36,186 nt of DNA, taken from contig CAIUOX010000042.1 of the NCBI GenBank assembly GCA_903900935.1, forward strand, positions 1-36,186. Reading direction: 5' to 3'. Below, piece by piece: positions 5,941 to 26,154 of this stretch; positions within the stretch are counted from its first letter, which is position 1; each line of letters begins with the position of its first letter. The notes below the pieces were generated by a model. That model did not search any database, was not told the DNA's origin, and saw only the letters and a program-made list of their open reading frames with translations. The DNA comes from an uncultured bacterium (lineage in GTDB: Bacteria > Patescibacteriota > Minisyncoccia > Phycocordibacterales > PALSA-1337). The translations under genes were made by a program, and so were the position numbers.

Positions 5941-7848
5941 TTATATATCAAGCATATTCATCAATCGGTCTATGCTTATAGTTGCTACACCACTTACGCT
6001 ATCACCAGCACCATAATACATATAGCCGATACCATTACGTACCACAAAACCACAAGGGAATACAACATTAGGGACAATTCCTGATTGTTCATATGATTCT
6101 TCTGGTTCAAAAATCGGCGCTGCTGTGCGAGCTTTGACTATAGTTGGATCTTCTAGGTCAAGCAATATCGCGCCAACACGATATATATTGCTCCATGATA
6201 TGCCATGGTATAACAAGAGCCAGCCTTTGTCTGTTTTGATTGGAGGAGTAGATATTCCAACTTTGTTGCCATCCCACATACCAGGACGAGGTGCGATCAA
6301 TTCTATGCAAGTGTTGATACTTTCTTTGCTGAAATCAAGCGAAGCGACATGATCTGCGCATATGCTTTGCTGGACACGGTGAATTATGATGTATTTTCCA
6401 TTTACCATTTCAGGAACGATGACGCAGTCTTTGTCAGGAATGTTTGGTGGTGTTATAGCTTGTGGCATTGACCAAGCACCCCACCGCCTTTCAAGAAAAT
6501 CAGTAATAGCTATTGAGCTTATTGCTACTCTTGGTGTGACTCCATCATATCCAGTATATGTCATATATACTCTATCCTGGATAAGAGCAATTCGCGCATC
6601 CTCACAACCATAGTTTTCTTGGGATTTTTCATTCATTTCAAATGGTGCTCTAGGAAAATATATAGGTTTGTCCAAACGTTCATCTATAGTGAAACCATCG
6701 CTTGATATTGCATATCCGATAGTTGAGACATTTTGTGAAGAGACTGCTCGGTATACGATATGTGTCTTATTTCCAATATCTATTGCTCCAGGATTGATTG
6801 TTCCATGCATTTCCCATAGTCTCCCAGGACGAGGTGCTATTGTTGGATTATTTTTGAAACGGGTAAATCCTTTTTGATGTCCATCTTCTAGTATGCTTAT
6901 GAGAAGCATATCTAGTGGAATAGTAGCAATAGCGCAGTGTGTATCAGCTGCACCATAATATATTTCGACTACATTGTCTTTGATGAGGACGCCAGTCGGA
7001 AATATTACGTTTGGTACTTGGCCAACATGTTCATAATATTGCTCAGGAACCATGAATGGGCCCTTGGTACGGCCAATTATCTTTAGTGGATTATTTAGGT
7101 CAAGAAGCACAGCCTCAATACCAAATGCTTGATCTGACATGCCATATCTTTGGATATGGGAATATATTACAAGCCACCCTTTTTCAGTTTTTACTGGTGA
7201 CGCACCGAGTTCTATCTGATCTTCTGGCTTGCGACGTATGTGTACTTTGTGTGCATTAAGATTGTTATACCAGTTGTGCCAATAGTCAGGGGACCACATT
7301 TCTTCAGGATTATTGAATTCTGCATAGCATATATCCGAAGGTTTACGATCGGTATTCACAGTAACAAGAGCCGCCATCTTATTATTTATTTTTTCTGAGA
7401 ATAGTGCCATCGCCTTGGCATTGAAAGGTGTAACAAGGTGTTTTTCATATATAGTTTGTATATCTTTACTTAATGCGACAGCAACTTTGATATTATCAGC
7501 AGAAAAAGGATATCCTCCGAGAGCAGTGTAAAAAATATAATATATTCCGTCTATACAGGTAATGCGAGGATCTTCACACCCAAAGCGATCAAAATCCATA
7601 TCTGGAGAAATGAGGATATGTCGATCGGTATAGTGGGTGCCATCATTGTCTGATATTGCGTGGCCGATGACTGACATACGTATGTGAGGATCTTTCAATA
7701 AGTTTGGGTCTGACATCGCTCTATATACCAGATGAGTTTTGCCATCCTTGATGATCGGGCATCCATTGAATGCTGCTGCTATTTCCCAATAATGCTCTCG
7801 AAGAGGCGATAGTATGGGATTATGGTCAGAACGCGTAACAGTGAACAT
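5941..7848 (-). CDS. Tandem GH130-GH130 fusion (beta-mannoside phosphorylase family)
   Basis: The 635 residues consist of two complete five-bladed-propeller GH130 domains, about 1-320 and 325-635. Each starts with 'NPIL/NPTIAPRPG', carries the family hallmark ('GCEDPRI' near residue 90, 'GCEDARI' near 415), 'GWLVIY/GWLLLYHG', 'VPNVIFPTG/VPNVVFPCG' and a final 'YYGAAD/YYGAGD'. GH130 enzymes mostly phosphorolyse beta-mannosidic links to release mannose-1-phosphate; some are hydrolases. The second domain keeps the YHG typical of phosphate-binding members, while the first reads 'IYSHI', so the halves may differ in activity. No signal peptide is seen, suggesting a cytoplasmic location. The gene lies 6 nt downstream of another GH130 gene. 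Confidence 0.88.
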   Translation of the reverse strand: MFTVTRSDHNPILSPLREHYWEIAAAFNGCPIIKDGKTHLVYRAMSDPNLLKDPHIRMSVIGHAISDNDGTHYTDRHILISPDMDFDRFGCEDPRITCIDGIYYIFYTALGGYPFSADNIKVAVALSKDIQTIYEKHLVTPFNAKAMALFSEKINNKMAALVTVNTDRKPSDICYAEFNNPEEMWSPDYWHNWYNNLNAHKVHIRRKPEDQIELGASPVKTEKGWLVIYSHIQRYGMSDQAFGIEAVLLDLNNPLKIIGRTKGPFMVPEQYYEHVGQVPNVIFPTGVLIKDNVVEIYYGAADTHCAIATIPLDMLLISILEDGHQKGFTRFKNNPTIAPRPGRLWEMHGTINPGAIDIGNKTHIVYRAVSSQNVSTIGYAISSDGFTIDERLDKPIYFPRAPFEMNEKSQENYGCEDARIALIQDRVYMTYTGYDGVTPRVAISSIAITDFLERRWGAWSMPQAITPPNIPDKDCVIVPEMVNGKYIIIHRVQQSICADHVASLDFSKESINTCIELIAPRPGMWDGNKVGISTPPIKTDKGWLLLYHGISWSNIYRVGAILLDLEDPTIVKARTAAPIFEPEESYEQSGIVPNVVFPCGFVVRNGIGYMYYGAGDSVSGVATISIDRLMNMLDI

Positions 7849-18718: not shown

Positions 18719-20458
18719 ATGTCAGTTCTCGATATACTTATACAAAAGAAGCTGATCTCAAAAGATGATCTGAGTGAAGTACGCAAGCAGATGTCTTCTG
18801 GTGCGACTATTGACGAAGCACTTATTTCTCGTGGAGTAAAACCTGAAGATATTATTATTGCTCGTGGTGAATTTCTCAATATTCCAGTACGTTCTGTTAT
18901 AGAATCTTCAATACCATTTGAGGTTCTTGATTATATTCCAGAAGAGTCAGCTGTACACTATCATTTTGCTCCTCTTGCTATCAAAGATGGTGTACTTGAA
19001 GTTGGTATTGTTGATCCAAACAATATGGAAGCACACGATGCATTGAACTTCCTTGCTGCAAAAAAGAATATTCCTTACAAGGTATTTTTGATTACACTTG
19101 ATGATTTTGGAAAGGTGATTGACGCTTACAAGGGTATGACTGGAGAAGTGTCAAAGGCGCTTTCTGAGCTTGAGACAGAATTGTCTGTTGATACATCTGA
19201 TGTTATGACTAAGGAAGAGCTGAAAGCACAAAATACGCCTACTACCCCTAGAAAAGAAAATGAAAATGCAATCATTATTGAAGATGCTCCAGTCGTCAAA
19301 ATTGTTGCTACTATTGTCCGTTATGCGGTTGAAGGAGACGCTTCAGATGTGCATATTGAACATATGCGTGACAAGATCAGGGTTCGTTTTCGTGTTGATG
19401 GGGTTTTGAATACAAGTCTAGTGCTTCCTCCACAAGTACACTCTGCTGTAGTTGCACGTATCAAGGTGCTATCAAATATGCGCCTCGATGAAAAAAGAAA
19501 GCCTCAAGATGGGCGTTTCACTGCTCGTATTGATAGCCGACGTATCGATTTCCGTGTATCTACGTTTCCATCATATTATGGAGAAAAGGTTGAAATGCGT
19601 ATTCTTGACCAAGCAAAAGGTATTCGTACTCTAGATCAGATAGGTATGTCTCCAGAAAATCTAGTAATGCTTCGTGAAGCTATCAGCAAACCGTATGGCA
19701 TGATCTTGATCACTGGTCCTACTGGTTCTGGAAAATCAACAACACTCTACTCTATCTTGAATGAGATCGACCGCGAAGCATACAATGTTCTTTCACTCGA
19801 AGATCCAGTTGAGTATTCTATCGAAGGAGTGAGCCAATCCCAGGTGCGAGCAGATATAGGATATACATTTGCTGAAGGTTTGCGCACTACCCTTCGTCAG
19901 GACCCTGATATTATCATGGTTGGAGAGATTCGTGACAAAGAGACTGCCAAGCTAGCAGTTCAAGCTGCTCTTACTGGTCACTTGGTATTTTCAACATTGC
20001 ATACCAACAACTCTGCTGGTGTGATTCCTCGTCTCATTGACATGGGAGTTGATCCATATCTCATCGCTCCTACGCTTATTTTGTCAGTCGCTCAGCGTCT
20101 TGTGAGTGTCTTGTGTCCAGGAGGAGGAGAACTCATTCAAGTTGATGGAGGTATAAAGGCTTTGATAGATCGTGAATTTGAAGATCTTCCTGAAAAATAT
20201 CGAAGCAAAATAGCCATTGGAGATACGATGTATAGAATTAAACCAACACCTGATTGTCCGAAGGGAACTCGTGGACGCATGGCGGTCTTTGAGATGTTCA
20301 AGATGGACAAAGAAATTGAAGAAGTAATGGGAAAGTCTCCTACAGAAAATGAGATTATGAAGGTACTACGTAGCAAAGGCATGCTTACTGTCAAGAATGA
20401 TGCAATCCTCAAGGCATCACAAAAAATTATTCCATTTGAAGAAGTAACAAAACTTTAA
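18719..20458 (+). CDS. pilB: Type IV pilus extension ATPase PilB
   Basis: 579 aa. An N-terminal GspE/PilB N domain ('LDILIQKKLISKDDLSEV', 'IPVRSVIESSIPFEVLDYIPEE') is followed by the hexameric ATPase core: 'EGDASDVHIEHMRDKIRVRFRVDGVL', Walker A 'GPTGSGKSTTLYS', Asp box 'LEDPVEYSIEGVSQSQV', Walker B 'RQDPDIIMVGEIRD' and His box 'TGHLVFSTLHTNNS'. The zinc-binding tetracysteine of most PilB proteins is reduced to single cysteines ('LCPGGG', 'PDCPKG'), so that site is probably lost. PilB powers pilin polymerisation at the cytoplasmic side. Confidence 0.94.
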   Translation: MSVLDILIQKKLISKDDLSEVRKQMSSGATIDEALISRGVKPEDIIIARGEFLNIPVRSVIESSIPFEVLDYIPEESAVHYHFAPLAIKDGVLEVGIVDPNNMEAHDALNFLAAKKNIPYKVFLITLDDFGKVIDAYKGMTGEVSKALSELETELSVDTSDVMTKEELKAQNTPTTPRKENENAIIIEDAPVVKIVATIVRYAVEGDASDVHIEHMRDKIRVRFRVDGVLNTSLVLPPQVHSAVVARIKVLSNMRLDEKRKPQDGRFTARIDSRRIDFRVSTFPSYYGEKVEMRILDQAKGIRTLDQIGMSPENLVMLREAISKPYGMILITGPTGSGKSTTLYSILNEIDREAYNVLSLEDPVEYSIEGVSQSQVRADIGYTFAEGLRTTLRQDPDIIMVGEIRDKETAKLAVQAALTGHLVFSTLHTNNSAGVIPRLIDMGVDPYLIAPTLILSVAQRLVSVLCPGGGELIQVDGGIKALIDREFEDLPEKYRSKIAIGDTMYRIKPTPDCPKGTRGRMAVFEMFKMDKEIEEVMGKSPTENEIMKVLRSKGMLTVKNDAILKASQKIIPFEEVTKL

Positions 20459-23249: not shown

Positions 23250-23274
23250 CATATCGAGGTCAGACCTCGATATG
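23250..23274 (+). repeat. REP copy A (downstream of pilC)
   Basis: 11-bp perfect arms (catatcgaggt / acctcgatatg) around a CAG loop. The core CGAGGTCAGACCTCG is at 23255-23269 and is shared with five other loci to the right. Confidence 0.85.
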
Positions 23275-23394: not shown

Positions 23395-23928
23395 ATGAAA
23401 AAGAATTTACATAACAAGGTAGGAGGTTTCACCCTTATCGAATTGCTCGTCGTTATCGCTATTATCGGTATTTTGAGTTCAGTTGTGTTGGTTAGTTTGA
23501 GTACAGCAAGAAATAAGGGTGCAGGAGCAACAGTAAAAGCAGATTTGTCAGGAATTAGATCTCAGGCAGAAATTGCATATAGTAATGTAGGTTGTTATGC
23601 TGCTTCTGGTACTACTTGTAGTGGAACAGTCCCTGCGGCAGTTGCTTTAGTTGCTTGCCCAACAACAGGATCGAGTGTCTTTGTGGATACCACTGTCGCA
23701 GCTCAAATTGCGGGTGCAATTAAAGCTAATGGATCTTACGCCGCTTGTTCGTCAACAGCTGGTGGTACTGCATGGGCAGTCGCAGCCCTCCTTCCAGGAG
23801 GAGTCGCAGCCACCGCTGATTCTGGATGGTGTGTTGATAGTACAGGAAAGTCAAAATCAATCAATGTTGCCACCATCGATCAGGCAGGTATAATAGCCGA
23901 AGTTTCTTCTGGTGCTTGTGTTGAATAA
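23395..23928 (+). CDS. Type IV major pilin (prepilin)
   Basis: 177 aa with a textbook class III signal 'NKVGG|FTLIELLVVIAIIGILSSVVLVSLSTARNK': Gly at -1, Phe +1, Glu +5. The globular domain is rich in Ala, Gly, Ser and Thr and contains seven cysteines, which could form disulfide staples. It has its own extended -10 promoter with a long 5' leader and a strong terminator 20 nt after the stop, so it is expressed as a single-gene unit. That points to the major pilin. GC content looks higher than in the minor pilin genes, as expected from its Ala/Gly-rich composition. Confidence 0.88.
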   Translation: MKKNLHNKVGGFTLIELLVVIAIIGILSSVVLVSLSTARNKGAGATVKADLSGIRSQAEIAYSNVGCYAASGTTCSGTVPAAVALVACPTTGSSVFVDTTVAAQIAGAIKANGSYAACSSTAGGTAWAVAALLPGGVAATADSGWCVDSTGKSKSINVATIDQAGIIAEVSSGACVE

Positions 23929-23988: not shown

Positions 23989-24020
23989 GTCGAGGCCTGA
24001 CCTCGAGGTCAGGCCTCGAC
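23989..24020. repeat. REP copy B: 32-bp perfect palindrome
   Basis: Two inverted REP variants (CGAGGCCTGACCTCG and its reverse complement) overlap at a central CTCGAG, forming a palindrome with 16-bp arms and no loop. The RAYT stop codon TGA (24011-24009) lies inside it. Confidence 0.88.
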
Positions 24021-24587
24021 ATTTATTTTCTTAGTTATAATGCTAGTTTGAGGTCTTATTGTTCCCAGATAATCCATATAGCTCGAGTGTGTATATTTCT
24101 TTGAATATTCTATGGCTTGTTGCAGATATTCAGTTTTTGCAGTTTTCATGAGTTCTGGTTCTTCAATTCCATAGGGATTCAAGTGTATATATTGGATGAG
24201 ATATCTCAAATAATCATCATTATCAACATGTTTTTCTTTATATGCACCTTGAAATATGGTTCCCGAATGATCATACTTTTTGTTGTAGTACATCACGTAG
24301 GCGGTGCAGAGTTTGCGCATAAATATTTCAATACCATTTTTAGTCTTTTCAACTAATCCCAAGTGAAAGTGATTGGGCATCAAACAGTAGGCGAATATGT
24401 TGACGAGGTCTGACCTCGGGCAAGAGAACATCTGGTCGGGCTTCATTCTTTTGAAACTAAGTTTTGATGTATTATTTGCAAGATATAGTAAAGCTATAAA
24501 CCGCCAATAATCACTTCCGTCAAGGAATATGGGTGCCTTGTGCGCTCCACGATTGTATATATGGTAGTGTTCATTTTGTATGTGCAT
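24009..24587 (-). mobile_element. REP-associated tyrosine transposase (RAYT, Y1/TnpA_REP)
   Basis: About 192 aa from the ATG at 24587 (MHIQNEHYHIYNRGAHK, the usual RAYT opening). It has the HUH metal motif in 'YCLMPNHFHLGL' (residues 73-75) and the nucleophile tyrosine region 'YLIQYIHLNPYG' (about 129-139), with 'GTIFQGAYKEKHVDND' between. RAYTs are single-copy domesticated relatives of IS200/IS605 transposases that cut and move REP sequences as single strands. REP copies flank it, lie inside it (copy C) and end it (copy B). An alternative start at 24632 has GGAG upstream and would translate REP D too; the 24860 start of the track is not plausible. The motifs look intact, so it may be active. 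Confidence 0.9.
24402..24423 (-). repeat. REP copy C, in frame inside the RAYT gene
   Basis: Core CGAGGTCTGACCTCG (24404-24418), shared over 22 bp with copy F apart from two positions. It is translated as the insert 'CPRSDLV' just before the conserved 'FAYCLMPNHFH' without breaking the frame. Confidence 0.85.
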
Positions 24588-24597
24588 AAAGTTTGGT

Positions 24598-24622
24598 TTG
24601 GCCGAGGTCTGACCTCGGCCAA
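24598..24622 (-). repeat. REP copy D, at the RAYT start
   Basis: 11-bp perfect arms (TTGGCCGAGGT / ACCTCGGCCAA) around CTG, located just upstream of the preferred RAYT start codon. Confidence 0.85.
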
Positions 24623-24690: not shown

Positions 24691-24705
24691 CGAGGTCTGA
24701 CCTCT
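24691..24705 (-). repeat. REP copy E (between RAYT and pilin gene)
   Basis: CGAGGTCTGACCTCT, with a mismatch at the last position. It shares the 20-nt stretch TGTTGACGAGGTCTGACCTC with copy C. Confidence 0.8.
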
Positions 24706-24728: not shown

Positions 24729-24734
24729 TATAAT
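24729..24734 (+). promoter_or_regulatory. -10 box of leaderless promoter for the second pilin gene
   Basis: TATAAT with 7 nt to the ATG at 24742, within the RAYT-pilin divergent gap and 24 nt after REP E. Confidence 0.6.
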
Positions 24735-24741
24735 TCTAGCC

Positions 24742-25344
24742 ATGAAAACTAATCTATCATCCGTCGAGGTCAGACCTCGGGCAAATCGCGCCTTTACTCT
24801 CATAGAACTACTGATTGTAGTTGCCATTATTGGCATACTTACCGCCGCTGTTATGGTCAATTTTAGTAGCGCAAAGTCAAAATCTAGAGATGGTAAGAGA
24901 GTATCAGATTTGGGAAATATACAGCTTGCATTGACACAGTATTTTGATCGATGTCGAGAATATCCATCTCCTATAAATACTGGACTTGCTACATTTGATT
25001 TGAGTGCTGATTGTCCAAATATTTCAACTCAGACGGTAACTTTTGGAGATTATATAGGAACTATTCCTGTAGATCCTATAAATAATAGTACCTATAAATA
25101 CGAATATGCGGTCAATACCGCCAAGAATGCTTTTCTTCTTCGCACTACCCTTGAAAATAGTTCGTCAGTGCTTACTGATAGTTTTGATAATACTGCAGCC
25201 AGTCGTCTTGGAAATCAGTTTTTTGTTGATGTAGAAGATCCATTACCACCTATATTTGATAGTTTTACTTTAGGGTCATATGAATGTCCAGACGTGAATA
25301 TTGCTCCAAAGCTATATATTTATTGTCTTAGTTCAAAATTTTAA
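24742..25344 (+). CDS. Type IV prepilin with REP-encoded leader peptide
   Basis: 200 aa. The prepilin signal is 'NRA|FTLIELLIVVAIIGILTAAVMVNFSSAKSK', with Ala at -1 and Glu at +5. The GspG-like continuation 'RDGKRVSDLGNIQLALTQYFDRCREYPS' and 'GTIPVDPINNSTYKYEYAV' resembles pilins and pseudopilins with an alpha-beta loop and a C-terminal disulfide. Residues 8-14 of the leader ('VEVRPRA') are the translation of REP copy F. It lies 6 nt upstream of pilD. Confidence 0.88.
   Translation: MKTNLSSVEVRPRANRAFTLIELLIVVAIIGILTAAVMVNFSSAKSKSRDGKRVSDLGNIQLALTQYFDRCREYPSPINTGLATFDLSADCPNISTQTVTFGDYIGTIPVDPINNSTYKYEYAVNTAKNAFLLRTTLENSSSVLTDSFDNTAASRLGNQFFVDVEDPLPPIFDSFTLGSYECPDVNIAPKLYIYCLSSKF
24763..24784 (+). 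repeat. REP copy F, inside the pilin leader coding sequence
   Basis: Core CGAGGTCAGACCTCG (24765-24779) followed by GGCAA. Orientation is opposite to copies C-E. It adds about eight codons to the leader and keeps the frame. Confidence 0.85.
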
Positions 25345-25350
25345 TAATAT

Positions 25351-26154
25351 ATGGATATTTTTTCAATTATATTTTCATTCATATTCGGTACTATTATTGG
25401 AAGTTTCTTGAATGTCGTGTCATTACGTTTCAATACAGGGGTTGGCATCAATGGTCGCTCCAAATGTATGTCATGTGGTGAGACTTTGACGTGGAAAGAG
25501 CTTGTACCATTATTCAGTTTCTTTATTCAGAAAGGTGCATGCAAGAAATGTAAGAGTAAGATTTCATGGCAATATCCGTTGGTAGAGTTTATTGCTGGTG
25601 GAATATTTGTTTTGATTTTTCTAACATTTCCTCCAAATGATTCATTAACAACATTTGTTACCTTATTACAGATGATAATTGCGTGTATTTTGCTCGTCAT
25701 TACAGTTTATGACGTGAAGCATAAGATAATTCCAGATCAGTTCTCATATGCATTTTCAGGACTTGCTATGGTTGGTCTTTTTGTTGGGGGTACTTCGTGG
25801 TTCCATGTACCATCGATGTCTGCGCTTCTTGCAGGACCTATACTGGCGGCCCCTTTTGCTCTAATGTGGCTCATATCAAAGGGAACATGGATGGGTCTTG
25901 GTGATGCAAAACTCGCATTGGGTATTGGGTGGCTTCTTGGAATCAGTGCAGGAATAAATGCGCTTATCTTGTCGTTTTGGATTGGTGCCGTATTGAGTGT
26001 GCTATGGCTTTTTGTGGTCTACAAGAAATTCAAGCCAAAGACAGAGATACCTTTTGGGCCATATCTCATACTTGGTATGTATCTTGTATTGTTGTTTCAT
26101 GTGCAGGTATTTGATTTTAATTTACTCAAAGAGATAATAATGTCATATTTCTAA
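25351..26154 (+). CDS. pilD: Prepilin peptidase PilD (A24 aspartic protease/methyltransferase)
   Basis: 267 aa, polytopic. N-terminal 'GTIIGSFLNVVSLRFNTG' is followed by an intact zinc tetracysteine ('CMSC' and 'CKKC'), then the two catalytic aspartates in 'TVYDVKHKIIPDQFS' and 'GLGDAKLALGIGW', and 'EIPFGPYLILGMY'. It cleaves prepilin leaders on the cytoplasmic side and N-methylates the new Phe1. Several substrates here have Ala instead of Gly at -1, so this enzyme may be tolerant at that position. It lies directly after a pilin gene. Confidence 0.93.
   Translation: MDIFSIIFSFIFGTIIGSFLNVVSLRFNTGVGINGRSKCMSCGETLTWKELVPLFSFFIQKGACKKCKSKISWQYPLVEFIAGGIFVLIFLTFPPNDSLTTFVTLLQMIIACILLVITVYDVKHKIIPDQFSYAFSGLAMVGLFVGGTSWFHVPSMSALLAGPILAAPFALMWLISKGTWMGLGDAKLALGIGWLLGISAGINALILSFWIGAVLSVLWLFVVYKKFKPKTEIPFGPYLILGMYLVLLFHVQVFDFNLLKEIIMSYF

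Follow-up and report, generated by a model that had tools for sequence, protein, structure and literature searches.

How does a repeated palindrome come to lie within the coding sequence of a pilin, and what does its presence there mean for the gene? The window, i.e. the 36,186 nt of contig C42 from a genome of 643,875 bases in 42 contigs (hereafter G000; by its small size and its genes probably one of the Patescibacteria), contains a type IV pilus operon with a RAYT-REP locus lodged between two of its pilin genes. The pilin-like gene next to RAYT (24742..25344, + strand, recognised by translation and Pfam) encodes a protein of 200 aa, and a REP palindrome was found within its prepilin leader.

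The Pfam N-methylation motif covers residues 13-38 of this protein. The leader comprises 17 codons, MKTNLSSVEVRPRANRA (24742..24792, + strand), followed by FTLIELLIVV on the mature side of the cleavage site, which is predicted between A17 and F18 by motif only. It is short and charged, the junction RA/FTLIE has the G/A at -1, F at +1 and E at +5 of type IV prepilins, and a gene for an A24 prepilin peptidase (25351..26154, + strand) lies directly 3' of the pilin, with Pfam matches to PF07963 and PF01478 for pilin and peptidase. The neighbouring gene, pilin 1 (23395..23928, + strand, translation and Pfam), has a leader without REP.

The REP core, CGAGGTCAGACCTCG, is a 15-bp perfect palindrome at 24765..24779, in leader codons 8-13. 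No in-frame ATG, GTG or TTG is present between the REP and the N-methylation motif (codons GTC GAG GTC AGA CCT CGG GCA AAT CGC GCC TTT), and translation therefore begins upstream of the REP. Judged by its codons, position 24742 is the only usable start, and any synthesis of the pilin entails translating the palindrome. This agrees with an earlier sequence-only reading of the locus, in which the REP lay between ATG and cleavage site and supplied about eight leader residues (VEVRPRAN); a start codon downstream of the REP, which would have spoken against that reading, was looked for within the leader and is absent. A predicted TGN-extended -10 box, TATAAT (24729..24734, + strand), ends 7 nt 5' of the ATG, and a -10-like hexamer ends 6-7 nt 5' of the ATG in 24 of 30 pilin orthologs, which suggests that the pilin message is leaderless.

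Among the 30 orthologs compared, the leader varies from 4 to 26 residues. Because the leader is cut off, as the motif predicts, and because its length is so variable, an added palindrome would be easily tolerated there. The same reading had held the insertion to be tolerated since the leader is removed; the tolerance is plausible and fits the ortholog lengths, the removal itself being predicted by motif. Leader length is no proof of an insertion, since REP-free leaders also reach 18-26 residues.

That the palindrome belongs to a repeat family is clear from its distribution. Within the window, 15-mer matches with at most 3 mismatches numbered 8, against 0.29 expected, and across the whole genome the GAGGTCNGACCTC core occurs 18 times exactly and at 29 places when up to one mismatch is allowed, versus 0 for the reversed control; the leader palindrome is therefore not due to chance. 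It is a short repeated palindrome linked to a RAYT gene, as REPs in general are. It is not of the GTAG type, as only 1 of the 18 copies has GTAG within 12 nt of the palindrome. Several copies, not formally counted, fall within open frames (RAYT, TatD, two pilins and an ORF on contig C33) and others are intergenic. The second pilin, on contig C34, has the leader MKKRQVLSEVRPRHIRG, in which this REP recurs at an identical leader position and frame.

One core, in the ProRS gene, was considered as a REP overwriting coding DNA without change of length. This was rejected, because R-S-D-L is present in the orthologs too, in almost identical codons; the ProRS core is native sequence, and some cores are therefore not insertions. 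The TatD-like gene (contig C8, ~6089-6128) contains two REPs, and its protein is 10 residues longer there than that of the sister genome described below. Longer palindromes, with at least 5 extra flank pairs, are centred on 5 of the 18 cores, mostly with locus-specific arms (e.g. 23250-23274 and 24598-24622); the observed total was reached by 0 of 20,000 flank permutations. Template-switch correction, or insertion at palindromes, is a possible origin of these extensions.

The RAYT gene itself (24009..24587, - strand) adjoins the pilin. It is the sole match in the genome to the Y1 transposase family (PF01797, over the cut-off), and its translation contains the HUH motif NHFHL as well as YIHLNP. 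This single-copy gene has REPs on both sides, of the family that recurs across the genome. One lies 5' of the pilin promoter (24691..24705), and another, whose stem has 12 bp, closely precedes the RAYT start (24598..24622); a third is internal to the RAYT reading frame, immediately ahead of the YCLMPNHFH codons (24404..24418); a fused inverted pair (23989..24020) provides the RAYT C-terminus VEA and the stop codon TGA; and a further one is found between pilC and pilin 1 (23250..23274), which was not seen at the matching place in the sister genome.

The closest of the compared genomes is G020, of the same genus (84% identity for ProRS, 79% for TatD, 65% for RAYT and 62% for this pilin). Trees of ProRS and of RAYT both group the two as sisters, with support of 1.00 and 0.94, respectively. 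In the G020 pilus locus, RAYT lies between the same two pilins in the opposite orientation, so that the locus has been rearranged since the split. REPs are present at matching positions in both genomes: downstream of pilin 1, upstream of RAYT, within RAYT at corresponding codons, at the stop codon of that gene, which the downstream REP provides in both (TGA in G000, TAG in G020), and in the pilin leader. The G020 REPs there are all of the family proper to that genome, being either ACAAGGGTAGACCTTGT or the GG variant of it; one has a mismatch, and exact copies, GG variant included, number 12 in the genome. In this family GTAG lies in the hairpin loop and is not 5' of the palindrome. The G020 leader, MKFKLFSNKGRPCQNRA, contains ACAAGGGTAGACCTTGT and aligns with the G000 leader without gaps and at equal length. 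Between the two leader REPs, 4 positions of the 15-bp core differ and the encoded peptides are distinct (VEVRPRAN versus NKGRPCQN). Stem pairing is retained, the second pair being changed from G-C in G000 to A-T in G020 on both sides, and the G020 stem has 6 bp with a 5-nt loop. The leader hairpin thus appears to have been kept while the REP sequence changed between sister species.

In RAYT/REP systems, the REPs flanking RAYT can change to a new class while relics of the old one remain, a process named orthoswitch (Nunvar 2013, PMC3686654). The features shared by the two loci suggest a REP site that was inherited and then passed through such a switch inside coding DNA. The G020 type is probably the older, since it is also found 5' of the pilin promoter in genome G011 and as a relic in G000 (contig C34, position 6766). 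We therefore favour, with fair but not full confidence, a resident REP of the RAYT-REP locus: the REP would have spread from that locus into the leader of the neighbouring pilin in an ancestor common to G000 and G020, and survived there because a prepilin peptidase removes a leader whose sequence and length are weakly constrained, the palindrome, open in every frame, being easily accommodated. It would later have switched family jointly with the other REPs of the locus, hairpin, frame and length being retained. Such a REP would matter to the RAYT-REP system and be close to neutral for the pilin. Some observations weigh against this account: at least one REP-like core, that of ProRS, is native coding sequence, the G000 REPs lack a 5' GTAG, RAYT is inverted between the two species, and the leader REP is carried by two genomes only, in a sample of one genome per species.

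The distribution among other relatives bears on this point. RAYT lies beside this pilin in G000, G020, G011, G003 and G028, and a REP is present in the leader of this pilin in G000 and G020 only (2 of 30 orthologs). None of the relatives without a RAYT match carries it, so that the other finding which the sequence-only reading would have taken as contrary, the same sequence in pilins of RAYT-less genomes, was not encountered among them. When 384 genomes of the class were scanned for the GAGGT...ACCTC pattern ahead of a prepilin motif, the only leader cases recognised were the two G000 pilins; of three other hits, not read in detail, one (G236) shows the repeat 5' of the ATG that opens a pilin-like leader. 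The G020-type repeat was likewise sought across the genus and, among pilin leaders, turned up in G020 only, the remaining hits being judged by the matched sequence alone. Both scans detect only the repeat type named. The idea that REPs in prepilin leaders are a widespread habit was dropped, as the two scans gave only G000 and G020.

In G000, G020, G003 and G028, though not in G011, the RAYT gene contains a palindrome at roughly corresponding codons, ahead of the HUH motif. It matches the repeats around the gene in G000, G020 and G003, where the length of the protein is about unchanged; that of G028 is similar to the G020 type. These internal palindromes may be source copies of the REP family. 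The ungapped REP in the RAYT gene could also be read as a REP overwriting coding DNA without change of length, for which the alignment is suggestive only.

Might the REP have entered the same leader twice, separately in G000 and G020, each time from the genome's own family? The DNA beside an active RAYT could be a hot spot, and a leader one of the few tolerant places in it. Where RAYT adjoins this pilin (five genomes), REPs do cluster around it in most cases, the C34 pilin of G000 has a leader REP as well, and most REP sites away from the pilus locus are found in only one of G000 and G020. Two separate entries would however require that the equal leader length, the ungapped alignment and the matching REPs throughout the locus, including the one inside RAYT, all be coincidence, and we regard them as unlikely, though to be kept in mind ahead of the other alternatives.

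A second alternative, which we rate as improbable and place next, is that the leader hairpin regulates pilin synthesis, either as an RNA structure that slows initiation or early elongation on the leaderless message, or as a site bound by RAYT that links pilin expression to the level of RAYT. It would account for the presence of a hairpin in the sister species with a changed stem, for the REP at the same place and frame in the second G000 pilin, and for the REPs or palindromes found 5' of the pilin promoter in five genomes. The folding data do not favour it. The sequence-only reading had pictured a strong hairpin about 20 nt into a leaderless mRNA; a leaderless start is indeed predicted, but the hairpin, which begins at nt 24 of the message, is a moderate one of 6-7 bp and -6.5 to -8.3 kcal/mol. 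Over the first ~125 nt the predicted folding does not reach significance (z -1.63), and the first 60 nt, at -11.2 kcal/mol versus an ortholog mean of -7.2 (sd 2.5), rank third lowest of 30, two orthologs without this REP being more stable. An exceptional mRNA structure was rejected on these grounds, and no known RNA family was matched in Rfam. The proposal that the hairpin throttles translation thus found no backing in a first 60 nt within the ortholog range, nor did a link between pilin expression and RAYT, for which there is nothing beyond adjacency. Moreover, the hairpin is carried by only 2 of 30 orthologs, its new stem tracks the REP family of the genome and is by itself no sign of selection on the hairpin, and single-stranded DNA is the substrate of the RAYTs examined to date (PMC8266576). 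Regulation by the leader hairpin is possible but not supported.

Alternatively, the REPs of the RAYT locus, including the leader and RAYT-internal copies, might have been rewritten in place as a set when the specificity of RAYT changed, the coding REPs acting as master or sensor sites, which would maintain at the pilin start a hairpin recognised by RAYT and so couple the two genes; this we consider doubtful, and rank below regulation. Finally, that the leader palindrome is chance coding sequence resembling a REP, as the native R-S-D-L codons make it in ProRS, is very improbable, because the leader has no conserved residues dictating a palindrome, two G000 pilins and the sister genome's own REP type share this position, the chance of finding 2 of ~23 REP places in ~400 nt of leader is near 1e-4 (a rough post hoc estimate), and the idea is contradicted by the G020 leader REP, an exact copy of that genome's own family.

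The resident REP of the RAYT-REP locus, the account preferred here, can be compared with known systems. As in REPtrons and REPINs (PMC3686654; Bertels and Rainey 2011, PMC3116915), a single-copy Y1 HUH gene is flanked by palindromes repeated in the genome, and as in orthoswitch systems (PMC3686654), the RAYT-flanking REPs appear to be of a new class, with a relic of the probably older one left in G000 too. In contrast to the hundreds of REP copies of known systems (PMC3686654, PMC3116915), G000 has ~20-30, without 5' GTAG, and they extend into the coding DNA of pilin leaders and of RAYT itself. Intragenic REPs of the GTAG/CGTC type, translated in frame within ordinary genes, have been catalogued, many of them near the N-terminus (Di Nocera 2013, PMC3733652). 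In-frame translation and REP ends that provide stop codons are common to that catalogue and to G000. However, many of the N-terminal cases are deemed possible start misannotations there, whereas the G000 pilin has no downstream start codon, and the main text of PMC3733652 contains neither 'pilin' nor 'signal peptide'. Rickettsia palindromic elements, as far as they are summarised in PMC3733652, likewise are palindromic mobile DNA tolerated within coding sequence; RPE-1 is longer in that summary, whereas the G000 element has 15-25 bp and lies beside its RAYT. The Patescibacteria are a further matter: in the literature searched, nothing relevant was found on REPs or RAYTs in this group, on leaderless starts there, or on REPs in prepilin leaders. 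The Rickettsia elements are not known to have a transposase.

REPs in genes and orthoswitches are thus already known. New, as far as the literature searched shows, are the prepilin-leader setting without an alternative start, the second pilin, the RAYT-internal REP, and a position and hairpin kept through a family switch in coding DNA. The locus is also a clear example, in a very small genome (0.64 Mb), of a RAYT-linked REP for which translation is unavoidable, within a leader that is removed according to its motif. Since two of the orthologous REP sites fall within genes, their homology is established by frame and protein alignment, and such sites are traceable through a switch here; on the mechanism of orthoswitches, those who described the process could offer only speculation (PMC3686654).

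Some minor features of these loci were also recorded. The G020 ortholog of the C34 pilin has a leader of equal length with no clear REP. In G000, the region 5' of the C34 pilin (6766-6815) holds the G020-type relic together with a third palindrome type, CCGAGGTCCCACCTCGG, which makes a stack of three REP types. G011 (C53, ~19255-19315) and G028 (C12, ~6725-6660) have in common a conserved element of ~60 nt, AAGAGAGCTTTCGGCCG...CACTTGGCGG, located between RAYT and pilin beside an additional open frame and without a match in Rfam, and in G003 tandem CTAGT units are found 3' of pilin 1 (C10, ~61750-61665).
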